Source of the DNA: Sulfolobales archaeon
GTDB lineage: Archaea > Thermoproteota > Thermoprotei_A > Sulfolobales > NBVN01
NCBI GenBank assembly: GCA_026419835.1
Contig: JAOAKQ010000002.1
Span: forward strand, 268,015-332,014
Direction of reading: 5' to 3'
DNA length: 64,000 nucleotides
Of this stretch, positions 2,404 through 47,874 are shown in pieces (position 1 is the stretch's first letter; every line of letters begins with the position of its first letter). The notes under the pieces are model-generated. The model was not told the origin of the DNA. It ran no database searches and saw nothing but the letters and a program-made list of their open reading frames with translations. The translations under genes and the position numbers were made by a program.

Positions 2404-4740
2404 GTGTACAACTTCGTAGGGAGAAGTTTTCCGAGGCACGACGGCTTCGCTAAGGCCTCGGGACTCGCTGAGTTCACGTTCGATATCGAGGTTCCCGGAA
2501 TGCTCTACGGTAGAATACTCAAGAGCCCGTACGCTTTCGCCAGAGTCGGAAGGATAGACACTTCGAGTGCTGAAGCGCTGGGGGCGGTCGCTCTAACTCC
2601 GGACGACGTTCCGGATAAGCTGTTTAACCCCAGGCTACTCAGCGTGGAGGAGGACACCTACAAGGACTGGAGAGTTCTCGCTAAAGTACCTAGATACGTT
2701 GGCGAGCCTATAGCCGCGGTCGCCGCCCCCACCGAAGACACTGCTCAGAGAGCTCTGGAAGCTCTCAGAGTAGAATTCGAGGAAATCTACGACCCCATTC
2801 TAGACCCCTTTAAAGCTACGTCACCAACCGCTAGACCTATTCACGAAAGAATTCTGAGAGGCGGTCGGTGGGTGGAGGTCAGGAACAACATCGCCGCGGA
2901 GCTCAGGTACTCCGAGGGCTATCTCGAGACGGAGGAGGAGAGGTCGAGTGTTGTAGTGGAGAGGAAGTTCCATGTACCTAGAAGATACCACACACAGCTG
3001 GAGCCTAAGGGAGCCGTCTGCAAGCTGGAGCCCGACGGAACTCTAGTGGTTTGGACTACTACGCAGACAATCCACAACACCAAGATACTGATTTCCCAAG
3101 TCTACGGCATACCTATGAACAGAATCGACGTTAGGAAGGTACCTCTCGGAGGTGGCTTTGGTTCCAGCATACACACGAACCTAGTTACCCTGATAGCCGT
3201 AGGTCTATGCCTCAAGTCCAGGAAGCCGGTGAAGCTCGTACTAACTAGAGAGGAGGACATGGTCCACGACCACGTTAGCTTCGAGTTCTATATGAGGGTT
3301 AGAGCCGGGGCTACTAAAGATGGTTCAATAACCTTCGGAGAGCTGGAAAACGTGATTGACGTAGGGGCTCACCAAGTGCAGGCGTACCCTATTCTCGGCA
3401 CTTCGCTAGGCTGGTTTATTTCGCTGTACAAGTGGAGAGCCGTCAGATACTACGGGAGGTCTGTCTACACGAACAAGGTTCCTTCGTGCGCTATACGCGG
3501 CTACGGAGCTCCGGAAATCACCTGGGCCGTCGAAACGGTTGTTGACGAACTAGCGGAGGAGTTGAAGATAGACCCCCTGGAGTTTAGGTTAGCTAACTAC
3601 AGAGGGAAGGGGGAGATATTCTGGGGCCAGGGACCGACGGTTAAGTCCGTTATTAGAAGTGATGGAGTGCCGGAGCTGATGGCTAGAGGCTCCGAGTTGA
3701 TAGGTTGGAAGCGCAGAGAAAGCCCCAAGGTGAAGACCGGTAGGTTTAGGAGGGGGATAGGTGTTGGAAGAGGTTTCCACACGTCTGGAGCTGGAGGACC
3801 TCTATCGGGTGCTATCATAGACTACACGGGCGCTATCGTTAAGGTGAACGAGGACGGGTCCGTTGACTACATCACGGCCCTCCAAGACCACGGCGGTGGA
3901 ACTCTCGACGCTCACGCTAAGATCATCGCTGAAGAACTGAAGATCCCGCCGAGTAGAGTGAGGATCGTGTGGTCCGGCACATCCACCACGGTTTACGATG
4001 TATGTACGCACGCATCTAGGGGTGTTTTCGCTGGTGGTGAAGCCGCTAGGAGAGCGGCTCTAGAAGTTAAGAAGAAGGTCTTGGAGTACGCTTCGAGAAT
4101 ACTGGACGCGGTGAGTCCGGAGGCTCTGAGGATCGAGTACGATAGAGAGCTCGACGACGCCGCTATATTCGTCGAGGGGGCTCCTGATAAGAGAATTACG
4201 CTGAGCGAGGTAGCTAGAACTGCGTGGCAGAGAAACTGGGGCTCTATATCAGCGTCGGTTAGCTATAGAGCTACCGTAGCTCCACCCAGCTTCACAGTGT
4301 ACTTCGTAGAGGTTGAGGTAGATACCGAGACGGGTGTCGTGAGGCCGATTAAAGTAGTTGCCGGTGCTGATGTAGGTACGGTTATAAGCCCAGAGCTAGC
4401 GGCTGGGCAGATTCACGGAGGTTTTGCTATTGGGTGGAGCTGGGCCGTCGGCGACGAAGTATCCTACCTAGAGAACGGAGTACCAGCGCACAGAATGAGC
4501 TTAGCGGACTACAAGCTACCTACGTCCATGGATTTACCTAGTGACGATGACTTCGTAGTAGTATTCGCTTCAACCTACGAACCGTACGGACCCTTCGGAG
4601 CTAAGGGTTTGGGTGAAGCGGCTTCCAACCCGGTGATTGCTGCCGTTGCTAACGCGATCTACAACGCTATAGGGGTCAGACTCTACGAAATACCGATGAC
4701 ACCCGAGAGAATTCTCAGAGCTATTAAAGGAGGTGATTAG
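2404..4740 (+). CDS. Molybdopterin-binding subunit of a xanthine dehydrogenase/CODH-type hydroxylase
   Basis: This 778-residue protein is the large catalytic subunit of a molybdenum hydroxylase. The N-terminal a/b hammerhead domain (about 10-120) starts with the usual GRSFPRHDGFAKASG. The Mo-binding domain contains GGGFGSS (about 249), AIRGYGAPE (about 361) and a C-terminal GAKGLGEA with the catalytic Glu (about 736). The AIRGYGAP loop lacks the AYxCSFR of true form I aerobic CO dehydrogenase, so oxidation of an aldehyde, purine or other heterocycle is more likely than CO oxidation. GTG start. The next gene begins immediately after its stop, giving a large-medium-small operon. Substrate is unknown. 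Confidence 0.9.
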   Translation: MYNFVGRSFPRHDGFAKASGLAEFTFDIEVPGMLYGRILKSPYAFARVGRIDTSSAEALGAVALTPDDVPDKLFNPRLLSVEEDTYKDWRVLAKVPRYVGEPIAAVAAPTEDTAQRALEALRVEFEEIYDPILDPFKATSPTARPIHERILRGGRWVEVRNNIAAELRYSEGYLETEEERSSVVVERKFHVPRRYHTQLEPKGAVCKLEPDGTLVVWTTTQTIHNTKILISQVYGIPMNRIDVRKVPLGGGFGSSIHTNLVTLIAVGLCLKSRKPVKLVLTREEDMVHDHVSFEFYMRVRAGATKDGSITFGELENVIDVGAHQVQAYPILGTSLGWFISLYKWRAVRYYGRSVYTNKVPSCAIRGYGAPEITWAVETVVDELAEELKIDPLEFRLANYRGKGEIFWGQGPTVKSVIRSDGVPELMARGSELIGWKRRESPKVKTGRFRRGIGVGRGFHTSGAGGPLSGAIIDYTGAIVKVNEDGSVDYITALQDHGGGTLDAHAKIIAEELKIPPSRVRIVWSGTSTTVYDVCTHASRGVFAGGEAARRAALEVKKKVLEYASRILDAVSPEALRIEYDRELDDAAIFVEGAPDKRITLSEVARTAWQRNWGSISASVSYRATVAPPSFTVYFVEVEVDTETGVVRPIKVVAGADVGTVISPELAAGQIHGGFAIGWSWAVGDEVSYLENGVPAHRMSLADYKLPTSMDLPSDDDFVVVFASTYEPYGPFGAKGLGEAASNPVIAAVANAIYNAIGVRLYEIPMTPERILRAIKGGD

Positions 4741-12287: not shown

Positions 12288-13234
12288 TACTTAAACACCC
12301 TAACCCTGCCTCTCAGTGCTTTAATGTCGTGAATGCTTTCGGTGGGTCTTCCCAAGTGCTCTATAACCGCGCAGCTAACTCCGAAGCTCTTCAGCTCCTC
12401 TAGATAGCTCCTCTGCATATCTAGTACTCCGAGTTTCGCAGCTAGCTCCTCCGGTAGTACCTTGTTGAGTACAAGAAGACTCGGTTCGACACCCAGCTTC
12501 TTCTTCAAGAATTCGTAGGTTTCTCTCAGTTCGTACATTGGTAGAGGTTCTGGCGTAGCTACTATAACGTACGAAGACCTGCTCTCCGAGGAGAGCGCGG
12601 AGTCTAAGTTCTTGAACTCGCTGCGCATTTCGTAGAGCTTAAGTAGAGCTCTATCTCTAACATCCACCTTCCTACCCGTAGTTCTAGCTATCACGTACCT
12701 CAGGGAAACTATCCTCTCCCTAATCTCGATCAGCCTATCTAACCACATTAGGTAGAGCCTGGGTAGGATCAGAGTTCTGATAGTAACACCGGTGGGCGGC
12801 GTATCTACTACGACGTAGTGGTAGCTACTGCCCAGAGCTTCTTCAAGCTTTCTGAGGAGGACCTCCTCTTCAACGCCGGGCGAGTACTTAACTACGTCGA
12901 CTACGCTATCTAGGTTAAGTACTGAGAGCGATGGCATTAGGTACCGTATTAAATCAGCGTATTTAGAGGTGATCTTCTCCACCTCCTTCTCTACAGAGAC
13001 GTACTTAACGTGAACACCTCCCTCAATTTCCTCTAGGTCCTCTCGAGATAGTCCTAGGTACTTAACTATGTGCCTAGCTGGGTCTAGGCTCAGCAGTAGA
13101 GTCTTACCCTTACGACTCAGCTCTAGAGCTATTAGGATAGCTACCGTAGTCTTACCGACACCCCCCTTACCAATAACCATGACTAGGTGGGGGCAGCACT
13201 CGCGCAGTTCCAGAGAGTCTGCGAGTCCTGTCAC
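12287..13234 (-). CDS. ArsA/Get3-like P-loop ATPase
   Basis: A 315-residue SIMIBI-class ATPase. It has the deviant Walker A GKGGVGKT (22-29), a switch I with LSLDPARH (48-55, compare DPAH of ArsA) and a switch II VVDTPPTGVTIRTLILP in which ArsA/Get3 have DTAPTGHTLRLL. Family members either target tail-anchored membrane proteins or drive arsenite pumps. No arsenite-binding cysteine trio or ArsB partner is visible, so a Get3-like targeting role is favoured. It lacks the tandem duplication of bacterial ArsA. It sits between a small soluble protein and a membrane-anchored protein, overlapping both. Confidence 0.85.
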   Translation of the reverse strand: MTGLADSLELRECCPHLVMVIGKGGVGKTTVAILIALELSRKGKTLLLSLDPARHIVKYLGLSREDLEEIEGGVHVKYVSVEKEVEKITSKYADLIRYLMPSLSVLNLDSVVDVVKYSPGVEEEVLLRKLEEALGSSYHYVVVDTPPTGVTIRTLILPRLYLMWLDRLIEIRERIVSLRYVIARTTGRKVDVRDRALLKLYEMRSEFKNLDSALSSESRSSYVIVATPEPLPMYELRETYEFLKKKLGVEPSLLVLNKVLPEELAAKLGVLDMQRSYLEELKSFGVSCAVIEHLGRPTESIHDIKALRGRVRVFK

Positions 13235-13524
13235 GGCGCGCCACCCAGTGCCGACATTAGCTCACCTATAACGTCCTCACCTCTAACTGCCTTACTCTCT
13301 AGGATCCTTATCTCGGGAACTAGGGGCTCCAGAAGCTCTAGCGATAGAAGTGGAGTAACCGTTTTAATACCTACTAGAGGTCCTAGCAGCATGAGTAGAA
13401 AGACGCTTTCGAGCTCAATGTACTCAGCTTCTAAAGCACTCACACTCTCCTCGATCATAGCTTCTCTAACTCCTCTTACAAAGGACTTCACTTCATTCAC
13501 TATCCTAGATATAGCTTTAAGCAT
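13231..13524 (-). CDS. Small protein, first gene of the ArsA/Get3-like operon
   Basis: A 97-residue protein starting at ATG 13524, which follows GGAGG by about 8 nt. A TTG at 13560 would add 12 residues overlapping the structured RNA upstream, so it is rejected. The N-terminal half is helical. The centre is hydrophobic (ESVFLLMLLGPLVGIKTV), followed by a Leu/Pro-rich segment and an acidic helix. It overlaps the ATPase gene by 4 bp. The hydrophobic centre could be a membrane hairpin or a partner-binding helix. The family is not named here. Confidence 0.65.
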   Translation of the reverse strand: MLKAISRIVNEVKSFVRGVREAMIEESVSALEAEYIELESVFLLMLLGPLVGIKTVTPLLSLELLEPLVPEIRILESKAVRGEDVIGELMSALGGAP

Positions 13525-13561
13525 TCTAAGGTCCTCCCAGATACGACTGCAAGGCGGCAAT

Positions 13562-13800
13562 TAAATGGGTTCTGAGCTACGTAGCTCTTGGGACTCACCG
13601 GTCTCGCCCTCCTCTCGAGTTCATCGGCGGGCCCACCGACCTCCTCCCCGGTCAGGGCGAACCCGCTCCACCCCCTCACCAGCTCCTCGAAGAGTTTCGG
13701 AGGTGGAGGAAGTCCCTCCATCTGAAGGCGCTCCTTTCGGGGCACCCGACATCCCACATCTGGAGCATCTCTTCCGCCAACACCTACCCGACCCATACCT
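13562..13800 (-). ncRNA. GC-rich structured RNA of unknown family
   Basis: About 235 nt far richer in G+C than the flanks, with many perfect helices on the minus strand. ATGGGT (13796-13791) pairs with ACCCAT (13570-13565) as a closing stem. GGTGC...GCGCC is capped by a CC-GAAA-GG GNRA tetraloop (13746-13727). GGGACT (13716-13711) pairs with AGTCCC (13595-13590). CTCCACC (13708-13702) pairs with GGTGGAG (13672-13666), and TCGCCCT (13660-13654) with AGGGCGA (13610-13604). A self-complementary GAGCTACGTAGCTC lies at 13587-13574. A TATA-like element (about 13829-13836) sits upstream. CAGAACCC near the 3' end resembles RNase P conserved region V, but I find no GAGGAAAGTCC-type region I and no SRP GGAAG/AGCA signature, so the family is left open. 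Open frames crossing it look like compositional artefacts. Confidence 0.6.
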
Positions 13801-13867
13801 ATTTAAATCTACCTGTCCTGAAACTGCTGATATAAGCGTATAAAAAATCTGTTAAGGCTTTGCAGAG

Positions 13868-45927: not shown

Positions 45928-47874
45928 CTACACGGCTATCTTTCCAATAACCATTTTAACTGGCTTAATTCTTCTTCCCTGAGCTTCGAAGAACTTAGAA
46001 GATATTTCGAATAGACATAACCGCAGGGAGTGAACGAAGGGGCTAACCGCTGAAAGAGCTAGGTTTAGAGTGTGTATCACTAGTGCTAGAACGACTCCTA
46101 GTGCGATACCGGCCAAGTAGTTTAGGCCTATGAGACTTTCAACGACGCCAGCCAGTATGCTGTTGAAAGCCTCAGCTAGAAAAGCCGTTCCACCAGCAAT
46201 ACCAGCTATTCTAACGTACGAGAAGACGTCCCCCACAATTCCTACGATATCGAATAGCCAGAGAAAACCTCCAACCCCACCCACAGTCTTAATCTTTGTG
46301 AGCACTACTAGAGCTACTCCTACGAAAGTTACTGCGAGAGTAGTTCTGTACAGGTCTTCCGATACCGCTACCCACTTCAAGTTGAACACTCTGGTCACAA
46401 CGAATAGCCCACCTAGCATAGTAAGTAGTATACCGATCTCGTAGACCGTGTCGTAGTTTCTGTGAAGCTTTACGTTTTTAGCTAGAGCTACGCTGTGCGA
46501 TAGAAAAGTGAATACGAACCCTATCGCGAGGCTAAGCCCGATCAACTCCATTATATCGAAGGTATTTATTAGAGGTCTCTCTATAGGTACATACCTACCC
46601 AGCATTGAACCTAGAAAACTCTTAGACAGCAGGCCGGTTACTATACTCAGTAAGCCCCCTACGTAGAGGATTTTCTTAAGTCTTAGAAAGCCCGGAGACT
46701 CTGGGTCTGCAGCAAATCTGGGTAGAACGTACCTAGTAGCTAAGATAACACCCAGCCCGTAGCCTGCGTCGGACATCATGAGGGAGAAGAACAGCAGGAA
46801 GGAGTACGTGAGGAGGGGCGTCGGGTCCCACTCGTGAGGAGACGGCACTCCGTAGAGCTCAGTAAGTAGTTCGAAGGGTTTAAAAGGAGTGAGATTCTTT
46901 AAATCGACCGGCGGGTTCTCCTCTTCGCGAAAACTGACGTACGCCGGGTAGGAAGCGAGGGACTTCACGATGTCGTTAACTCTGGATTTCGGAACCCAGC
47001 CGACGACTACCGCAACGTACTTAGAGCTTAGAGCGCTTTGAAGAATCTTACTTCTCTCGTATTCGGACTCAACGAGAGATTTCAGCATAGCTATATCTCT
47101 AACTGCGGACTTAAGTAGTTCTCGCTTCCTAGCTGTGAGGTCTTCGATAACCCTACTCACTTCGACAGCTCTCTCACTTAATTTGATTGCGAAATCTCTC
47201 AGCGGGACATCCGGAGATTCTTCAATCTCTAGGAACTTTATGTCAGTACCGGCAGCTCTAATTACTTCACTAAATACTTCCGGGCTGAATGCTAGAGAAG
47301 CTACCACCTTCTTATCGTACTCTACGGCCTCAATAACTGATAGCGACCTACTCTTGAGCTGCTCGTAGGTTCCTTCAGTAGTTACTAGAGATCTTGTGAT
47401 CACGTGCTTTCCGGAGTAGTTAATGAGAGATAGCTTCCCGTTCGGGTGCTTAGCTACTAGTGCTTCAACGAGCCTCCTTACGGCTTCCAATTCCTCAAGC
47501 TCGGCTCTACGAGACGATATGAGAGCGTTCAAGTTCTTAACTTTCTCGTACACTGCTTCCATAGTGGCTACCAGAGACTTTACCGCGTTTTTAATACTAC
47601 CCTGAGGTGCCTCAATTCGAACGACTATCTCTTCTTCAAGATTCGACTCTAGGTACTTACAGATTTCTTCAGATTTTTTTAGTTGAGAGAAGTACTCCTC
47701 ATATTCTTTAAGTAGCGGAGTATTCGGTTCTAGAACTACGGGTTCAACAACTTCCCTCCTTAGAAGTACCTCGGTTACTTCACCTACGTAATCCTTAGGA
47801 ACTACTACGAAGAGCTTGAGAGCTACGTCCGGGTCGCTTAAGATCGCCTGCCTTACGCTACTCAATAGCGACAC
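45928..47874 (-). CDS. atpI: A-type ATP synthase subunit I (a subunit)
   Basis: A 648-residue stator membrane subunit. A soluble N-terminal half with coiled coils (about 1-330) precedes eight or so transmembrane helices (about 345-640), with the conserved SDAGYGLG entrance and SYVRIAGIAGG segments. It forms the ion half-channels facing the K ring. It overlaps atpH by 17 bp and is separated from atpK by 151 bp. Confidence 0.94.
   Translation of the reverse strand: MSLLSSVRQAILSDPDVALKLFVVVPKDYVGEVTEVLLRREVVEPVVLEPNTPLLKEYEEYFSQLKKSEEICKYLESNLEEEIVVRIEAPQGSIKNAVKSLVATMEAVYEKVKNLNALISSRRAELEELEAVRRLVEALVAKHPNGKLSLINYSGKHVITRSLVTTEGTYEQLKSRSLSVIEAVEYDKKVVASLAFSPEVFSEVIRAAGTDIKFLEIEESPDVPLRDFAIKLSERAVEVSRVIEDLTARKRELLKSAVRDIAMLKSLVESEYERSKILQSALSSKYVAVVVGWVPKSRVNDIVKSLASYPAYVSFREEENPPVDLKNLTPFKPFELLTELYGVPSPHEWDPTPLLTYSFLLFFSLMMSDAGYGLGVILATRYVLPRFAADPESPGFLRLKKILYVGGLLSIVTGLLSKSFLGSMLGRYVPIERPLINTFDIMELIGLSLAIGFVFTFLSHSVALAKNVKLHRNYDTVYEIGILLTMLGGLFVVTRVFNLKWVAVSEDLYRTTLAVTFVGVALVVLTKIKTVGGVGGFLWLFDIVGIVGDVFSYVRIAGIAGGTAFLAEAFNSILAGVVESLIGLNYLAGIALGVVLALVIHTLNLALSAVSPFVHSLRLCLFEISSKFFEAQGRRIKPVKMVIGKIAV

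Follow-up and report, generated by a model that had tools for sequence, protein, structure and literature searches.

A GC-rich insertion beside an ArsA-type ATPase gene

The window analyzed here, a 64,000-nucleotide stretch of a contig from an archaeon of the Sulfolobales, contains an ArsA-type ATPase gene adjoined by a small uncharacterized gene (13231 to 13560), which has no Pfam family and lies beside cstA in all seven genomes of the genus. Next to these genes is a stretch with a GC content of 65% (13600 to 13799), compared with approximately 48 to 50% in its surroundings. An earlier note, made from the sequence alone, had singled out this island as a structured RNA unlike its neighbors in composition. 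The features on which that description rested are present: several helices can be drawn, the GAAA-loop hairpin (GTGCCCC-GAAA-GGAGC) lies at 13730 to 13745, and a closing stem ends on CAGAACCC. The structured stretch is therefore there, but the limits proposed for it (13562 to 13800) were wrong. The insertion spans approximately 13567 to 13836 on the minus strand, so that the TATA-like box TTTAAATA (13800 to 13809, minus strand), which had been placed upstream of the feature, sits inside the element together with a conserved left end. The right boundary (13567) is exact to 1 to 2 bases, and the left (approximately 13836) to a few bases.

The site is empty in each of the six congeners, where 65 to 95 bp separate the flanking genes, and the order of cstA and the small gene, which in the window is followed by the ArsA-type ATPase gene, is kept. 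The folding energy of the stretch is unremarkable for a single sequence, with minimum free energy (MFE) z scores of -1.4 on the minus strand, -1.5 on the plus strand, and -1.7 for a 157-nt core. Folding of the single sequence is not beyond chance; it is covariation in relatives that shows the structure to be real.

Ends, junctions, and flank

The left end (13799 to 13836, minus strand; consensus GCCGTTGTCAGCAGTTTCAGGGTGGAAAGACTTAAATAG, window GCTTATATCAGCAGTTTCAGGACAGGTAGATTTAAATAG) aligns with those of three tnpB-bearing loci (L143, L148, and L139) and of miniature copies. Conserved within it is the TATA-like box, GATTTAAATA in the window (13800 to 13809), and GACTTAAATAG is found at the same left-end place in both tnpB-bearing L143 and miniature copy L015. 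In the parent element the box probably served as the promoter. Outside the window, a further left end belonging to this transposon family (CAGCAGTTTCAGGATAGATGGGTTTAAATAG) stands alone, with no right end (G000:C19:59094-59124; L011 and L232).

The right end, AGAACCC (13567 to 13573, minus strand), runs ..CTCAGAACCC in the window. Across 61 copies AACC is conserved in approximately 55 and the next C in 51, after which the flank is unconserved. Left ends mostly start GCC-G, the window junction reading GCT rather than the GCC seen elsewhere. IS607 elements recombine at GG (PMC10711439), and a right end that stays the same as far as AACC(C) in most of the 61 copies, together with GCC-G left ends, fits the CC/GG dinucleotide recombination published for them; the recombination dinucleotide at the right end is probably CC (GG on the other strand). 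By analogy with IS607 and IS605 reRNAs (PMC10711439), the flank that would serve as guide is ATTTAATTGCCGCCTTGCAG (13547 to 13566, minus strand). It is host sequence, its start (CATTTAATT) matching the empty site in genome G001.

Covariation in a guide-RNA scaffold

The omegaRNA/reRNA scaffold (13567 to 13708, minus strand) is supported by covariation, both on tnpB-borne copies and on the set that includes the window. Its helices are 13708-13701/13673-13666, 13664-13659/13572-13567, 13641-13638/13603-13600, and 13632-13626/13612-13606. In the second of these, GGGUUC in the middle of the scaffold pairs with GAACCC at its very end, adjoining the putative guide.

A consensus structure from 12 tnpB-borne sequences comprised 39 pairs, 21 of them with double changes, and 90% of cells were paired. 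Two-sided changes were found in 52 cells, against 17.7 in shuffles, of which none of 500 reached 52. This control takes no account of relatedness, and the alignment tested was also the source of the structure, so weight is carried by the count of double changes and by a sliding control, in which moving the partner by one column lowered the paired cells from 90% to approximately 50%. The signal persisted after the window and three miniature copies had been added. Covariation among relatives, which the earlier note had named as a check on its proposal of a structured RNA encoded on the minus strand, thus backs these helices. When decayed copies were included, the 3' 94 nt gave a weak structure model (-2.3 kcal/mol); restricting the set to tnpB-borne copies resolved the structure.

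Of the 38 pairs that can be aligned in the window copy, 36 are canonical, five of them through a double (compensatory) change relative to the tnpB-borne consensus, whereas shuffles of the copy's own letters gave a mean of 18.5 canonical pairs. The copy in genome G006 is decayed, with 33 pairs formed and 17 broken. The nearest full scaffolds are tnpB-borne copies, with 76 to 78% identity over approximately 150 nt. A further 13 pairs, belonging to the terminal hairpin, are not alignable in the window copy; here the hairpin is reduced to the palindrome GAGCTACGTAGCTC (13574 to 13587, minus strand), compared with GAGCTACGTAAGTCTATCAAAGACTACGTAGCTC in longer copies, 20 nt having been lost between the near-direct repeats CAAGAGCTACGTA and CAAAGACTACGTA. 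Given this shortening, the activity of the window scaffold is uncertain.

Dispersed copies and an autonomous IS607 parent

A DNA search of 60 related genomes placed the window sequence at many sites in G030 and at one in G006, and searching back from a G030 copy recovered the window (E = 5.9e-11). Using a majority consensus, 23 matches were found in G030 and 14 in G012, and a profile of the last 94 nt identified copies in 23 of 214 genomes of the order, including 17 copies in G030 and 19 in G012. The element model also matched in genome G126. G030 and G012 (L176 to L214) each harbor approximately 20 solo copies, in both orientations relative to their neighbors; no intact tnpB was found in either genome, and G012 has only a broken tnpA fragment near one copy. 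Two G012 copies share an identical stretch of 112 nt, indicating recent movement of this type of element in that genome. One copy (L056) starts immediately after a tRNA-like gene. No exact match to the right-end motif was found in viral contigs.

The right end is more widespread, an exact 24-nt piece of it being present in Sulfolobales, Thermofilaceae, Bathyarchaeota, Methanomethylicota, Nitrososphaerales, Hadesarchaea, and Jordarchaeia. It stands directly after intact tnpB in L152, L148, and L143, and intact tnpB genes followed by this right end occur in Bathyarchaeota, Methanomethylicota, and Nitrososphaerales. Several copies encode the TnpB zinc ribbon and tail just 5' of the 3' part. L143 holds an open TnpB frame of 425 amino acids between the same left and right ends (1,444 nt end to end), and L148 one of 424 amino acids after a broken tnpA. 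A complete unit was found in a Sulfolobales relative (G007, L166), with the left end at 3194, TnpA at 3142 to 2531, TnpB at 2586 to 1225, and the right end at approximately 1212. This TnpA combines a helix-turn-helix (HTH) with a serine-recombinase domain and matches the IS607 transposase model NF033518 (NCBIfam) above cut-off (E = 9.4e-72); a serine recombinase with a MerR-type HTH thus lies between the same ends as those of the window element. The parent TnpB matches the Cas12f1-like_TNB domain, guided_TnpB (E = 3e-19), and solved TnpB structures. An IS200/IS605 parent with a Y1 transposase, the first guess, was dropped as the full element has a serine recombinase.

The TnpBs of L143 and L229 (Nitrososphaerales; G146) read INRQLNAAIN, compared with DRQLN in relatives, so that asparagine may stand in place of the third RuvC aspartate; if so, these could be cleavage-dead proteins bound to a guide RNA. 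In L138 (Nitrososphaerales KUA_Bin06), L147, and L150, right ends identical to those of this IS607 family lie behind shorter, different TnpB tails or scaffolds, which suggests that right ends have been exchanged between TnpB lineages.

The dispersed related copies, the ends shared with full-length IS607 elements, and the empty site in congeners define the whole insertion (13567 to 13836, minus strand) as a nonautonomous element of the IS607 family. The GC-rich stretch is an orphan guide-RNA insertion, from which the tnpA and tnpB genes have been lost and in which both ends, the TATA-like box, and the omegaRNA/reRNA scaffold are kept. With high confidence, we assign it as a 270-bp MITE-like internal-deletion derivative of an archaeal IS607 transposon. 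Like MITEs, the elements are short, noncoding, multicopy, and mobile and share their ends with an autonomous element; the window genome has one full copy only.

That copy and a left-end remnant are the copies known in the window genome (84% complete), in which neither a TnpB above the family cut-off nor an IS607 TnpA was found. As neither was found there, the window copy is most likely recent and now stranded, without a host function; it is probably a stranded orphan guide RNA and, its partner proteins seemingly being absent, probably idle. A second match to the model (47444 to 47536) was rejected as a further copy; it is weak (21 bits), has neither the right-end nor the left-end motif, and looks like chance.

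Alternatively, the guide RNA may have been domesticated, such that the host or a remaining TnpB- or Cas12-like protein employs the orphan omegaRNA in binding DNA or in regulating the downstream ArsA-type operon. The window scaffold is unusually intact in comparison with the decayed G006 copy, the left-end TATA-like box has been kept, and the element lies just upstream of the ArsA-type operon on the same strand. However, there is the lack of a TnpB above cut-off in the genome, the first 12 nt of the guide have no other match within the window, and the empty site in every congener argues against a conserved role, making domestication very unlikely.

Remnants of tnpB and the minus-strand reading frame

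The derivative also retains coding remnants of its parent. Codons of the tnpB zinc ribbon (C-S-R-C-G-M, then part of N-A-P-K-G) are present at 13730 to 13769 on the minus strand and contain the GAAA hairpin; within this remnant, TGCTCCAGATGTGGGATG and GCCCCGAAAGGAGC are identical to zinc-ribbon coding DNA of L173, L148, and L152. The second half of the zinc ribbon (approximately 60 nt) has been deleted at 13729/13730, a scar shared with the G030 and G006 copies. Protein alignment to intact TnpBs then revealed a vestigial frame for the C-terminal tail (LQMEGLPPPPKLFEELVRGWSGFALTGEEVGGPADELERRARPVSPKSYVA; 13575 to 13727, minus strand), sharing 59% identity over 51 amino acids with the intact 424-amino-acid TnpB of L148 and 62% over 50 amino acids with that of L143. 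Along the minus strand, the order is therefore left end with TATA-like box, zinc-ribbon piece, deletion scar, tnpB tail overlapping the scaffold, and right end.

The earlier note had held that conserved coding through the region would speak against an RNA. Protein similarity does exist, in the 51 residues of the minus-strand open reading frame (ORF) that resemble TnpB, but it is confined to the tail and reflects the overlap of the guide RNA with the 3' end of tnpB. A small protein-coding gene of 98 codons (13500 to 13796, minus strand) is a highly improbable reading: its frame is open in the window and carries the TnpB-tail identity, but the homology goes no further than that tail, stops and indels interrupt the frame in other miniature copies, and covariation indicates that RNA pairing is constrained. 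Pfam assigned no family to either ORF.

Comparison with RNase P, SRP, and other RNA families

No Rfam family was found at threshold in the element or in four tnpB-bearing loci (RAGATH-18 included, if its model is in the library), and nothing significant was detected in the element even at permissive E values of up to 10. The covariance models for archaeal RNase P RNA (RF00373) and signal recognition particle (SRP) RNA (RF01857) gave no match at the element; their true counterparts lie elsewhere in the same genome, a complete archaeal RNase P RNA at C19:198264-198577 (210 bits) and an SRP RNA at C41:79938-80243 (148 bits). There is practically no chance that a GC island in a hyperthermophile-like genome, with many helices and CAGAACCC near its 3' end, is here a divergent RNase P RNA, an SRP RNA, or another housekeeping RNA, as both genuine RNAs are encoded elsewhere, Rfam offers no match, and the sequence is absent from the site in six of six congeners and multicopy and dispersed in relatives. 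The suggestion of a divergent RNase P RNA in the earlier note is thereby ruled out, and CAGAACCC is the transposon right end and not a landmark of RNase P. What the note offered as a possible new RNA class is, in place of a housekeeping RNA, an IS607 TnpB guide-RNA scaffold left in a miniature transposon.

Proposed mechanism and relation to known systems

TnpB is an ancestor of CRISPR-Cas12 nucleases and finds DNA via a guide RNA. In the working model, drawn from what is known of TnpB, the scaffold loads TnpB, the flank guides it, the empty donor site is cut, and the element is retained (PMC8612924; PMC10711439). The parent of the window element carries tnpA, encoding the serine recombinase, and tnpB, the 3' end of the latter overlapping a guide RNA that ends at the right end of the transposon. 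The derivative retains what TnpA needs, namely, both ends, along with the scaffold of the guide RNA and, at the left end, the promoter-like box. A transcript starting at the box at 13800 would run through the scaffold into approximately 20 nt of host flank, a potential guide. A matching TnpA in the cell could mobilize the element in trans, and a matching TnpB could load the RNA and cut the empty donor site, favoring retention of the element. A bolder idea, which we judge very unlikely, is that archaea of this order possess genome-wide sets of approximately 20 solo TnpB guide RNAs, each under its own left-end promoter and bearing a distinct guide from the host, and that these work in trans with TnpB or another Cas12-like protein as an addressable guide array and are not debris.

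A GC island resembling a new noncoding RNA is explained as a transposon remnant with a guide-RNA scaffold. The covariation-supported archaeal IS607 guide-RNA family to which it belongs is missing from Rfam and is found beside tnpB in Thermoproteota, Bathyarchaeota, Methanomethylicota, Nitrososphaerales, and Hadesarchaea. In genomes that hold approximately 20 solo copies but lack a nuclease gene, it can be tested whether miniature elements benefit from TnpB provided in trans. The comparison also links MITEs of the kind described in Staphylothermus marinus in 2009 to TnpB guide RNAs, adding the scaffold to their known content.

Among the kinds of element already known are orphan omegaRNAs and miniature IS200/IS605 elements of the PATE type. 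Together with the archaeal IS200/IS605 omegaRNA (PMC12558985), they resemble the window element in having ends and a guide RNA without the nuclease gene, and in an RNA that overlaps the tnpB 3' end; they differ in belonging to IS200/IS605, with a Y1 transposase, whereas the parent of the window element is an IS607 transposon with a serine recombinase. No description of an archaeal IS607 orphan guide-RNA family was found in the mainly open-access literature searched. In S. marinus, 14 copies of a MITE of approximately 260 nt were reported along with IS607 elements (Anderson et al. 2009, PMC2678158), and these MITEs were described as having inverted repeats and as resembling the sequence that precedes the transposase ORFs. 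From that description they are like the window element in size, family, and order of archaea; the guide RNA was unrecognized in that paper, TnpB guide RNAs not being known then. The window element also corresponds to IS607 transposons and their reRNAs (PMC10711439; PMC11061315), with which it shares both ends, a probable CC/GG junction, a scaffold extending to the right end, a fixed base after the right end, and a guide taken from the host flank, and from which it differs in having neither tnpA nor tnpB. The archaeal scaffold overlaps the 3' coding end of tnpB, as in IS200/IS605 elements and unlike the RAGATH-18 reRNA, which lies beyond the gene (PMC11061315).
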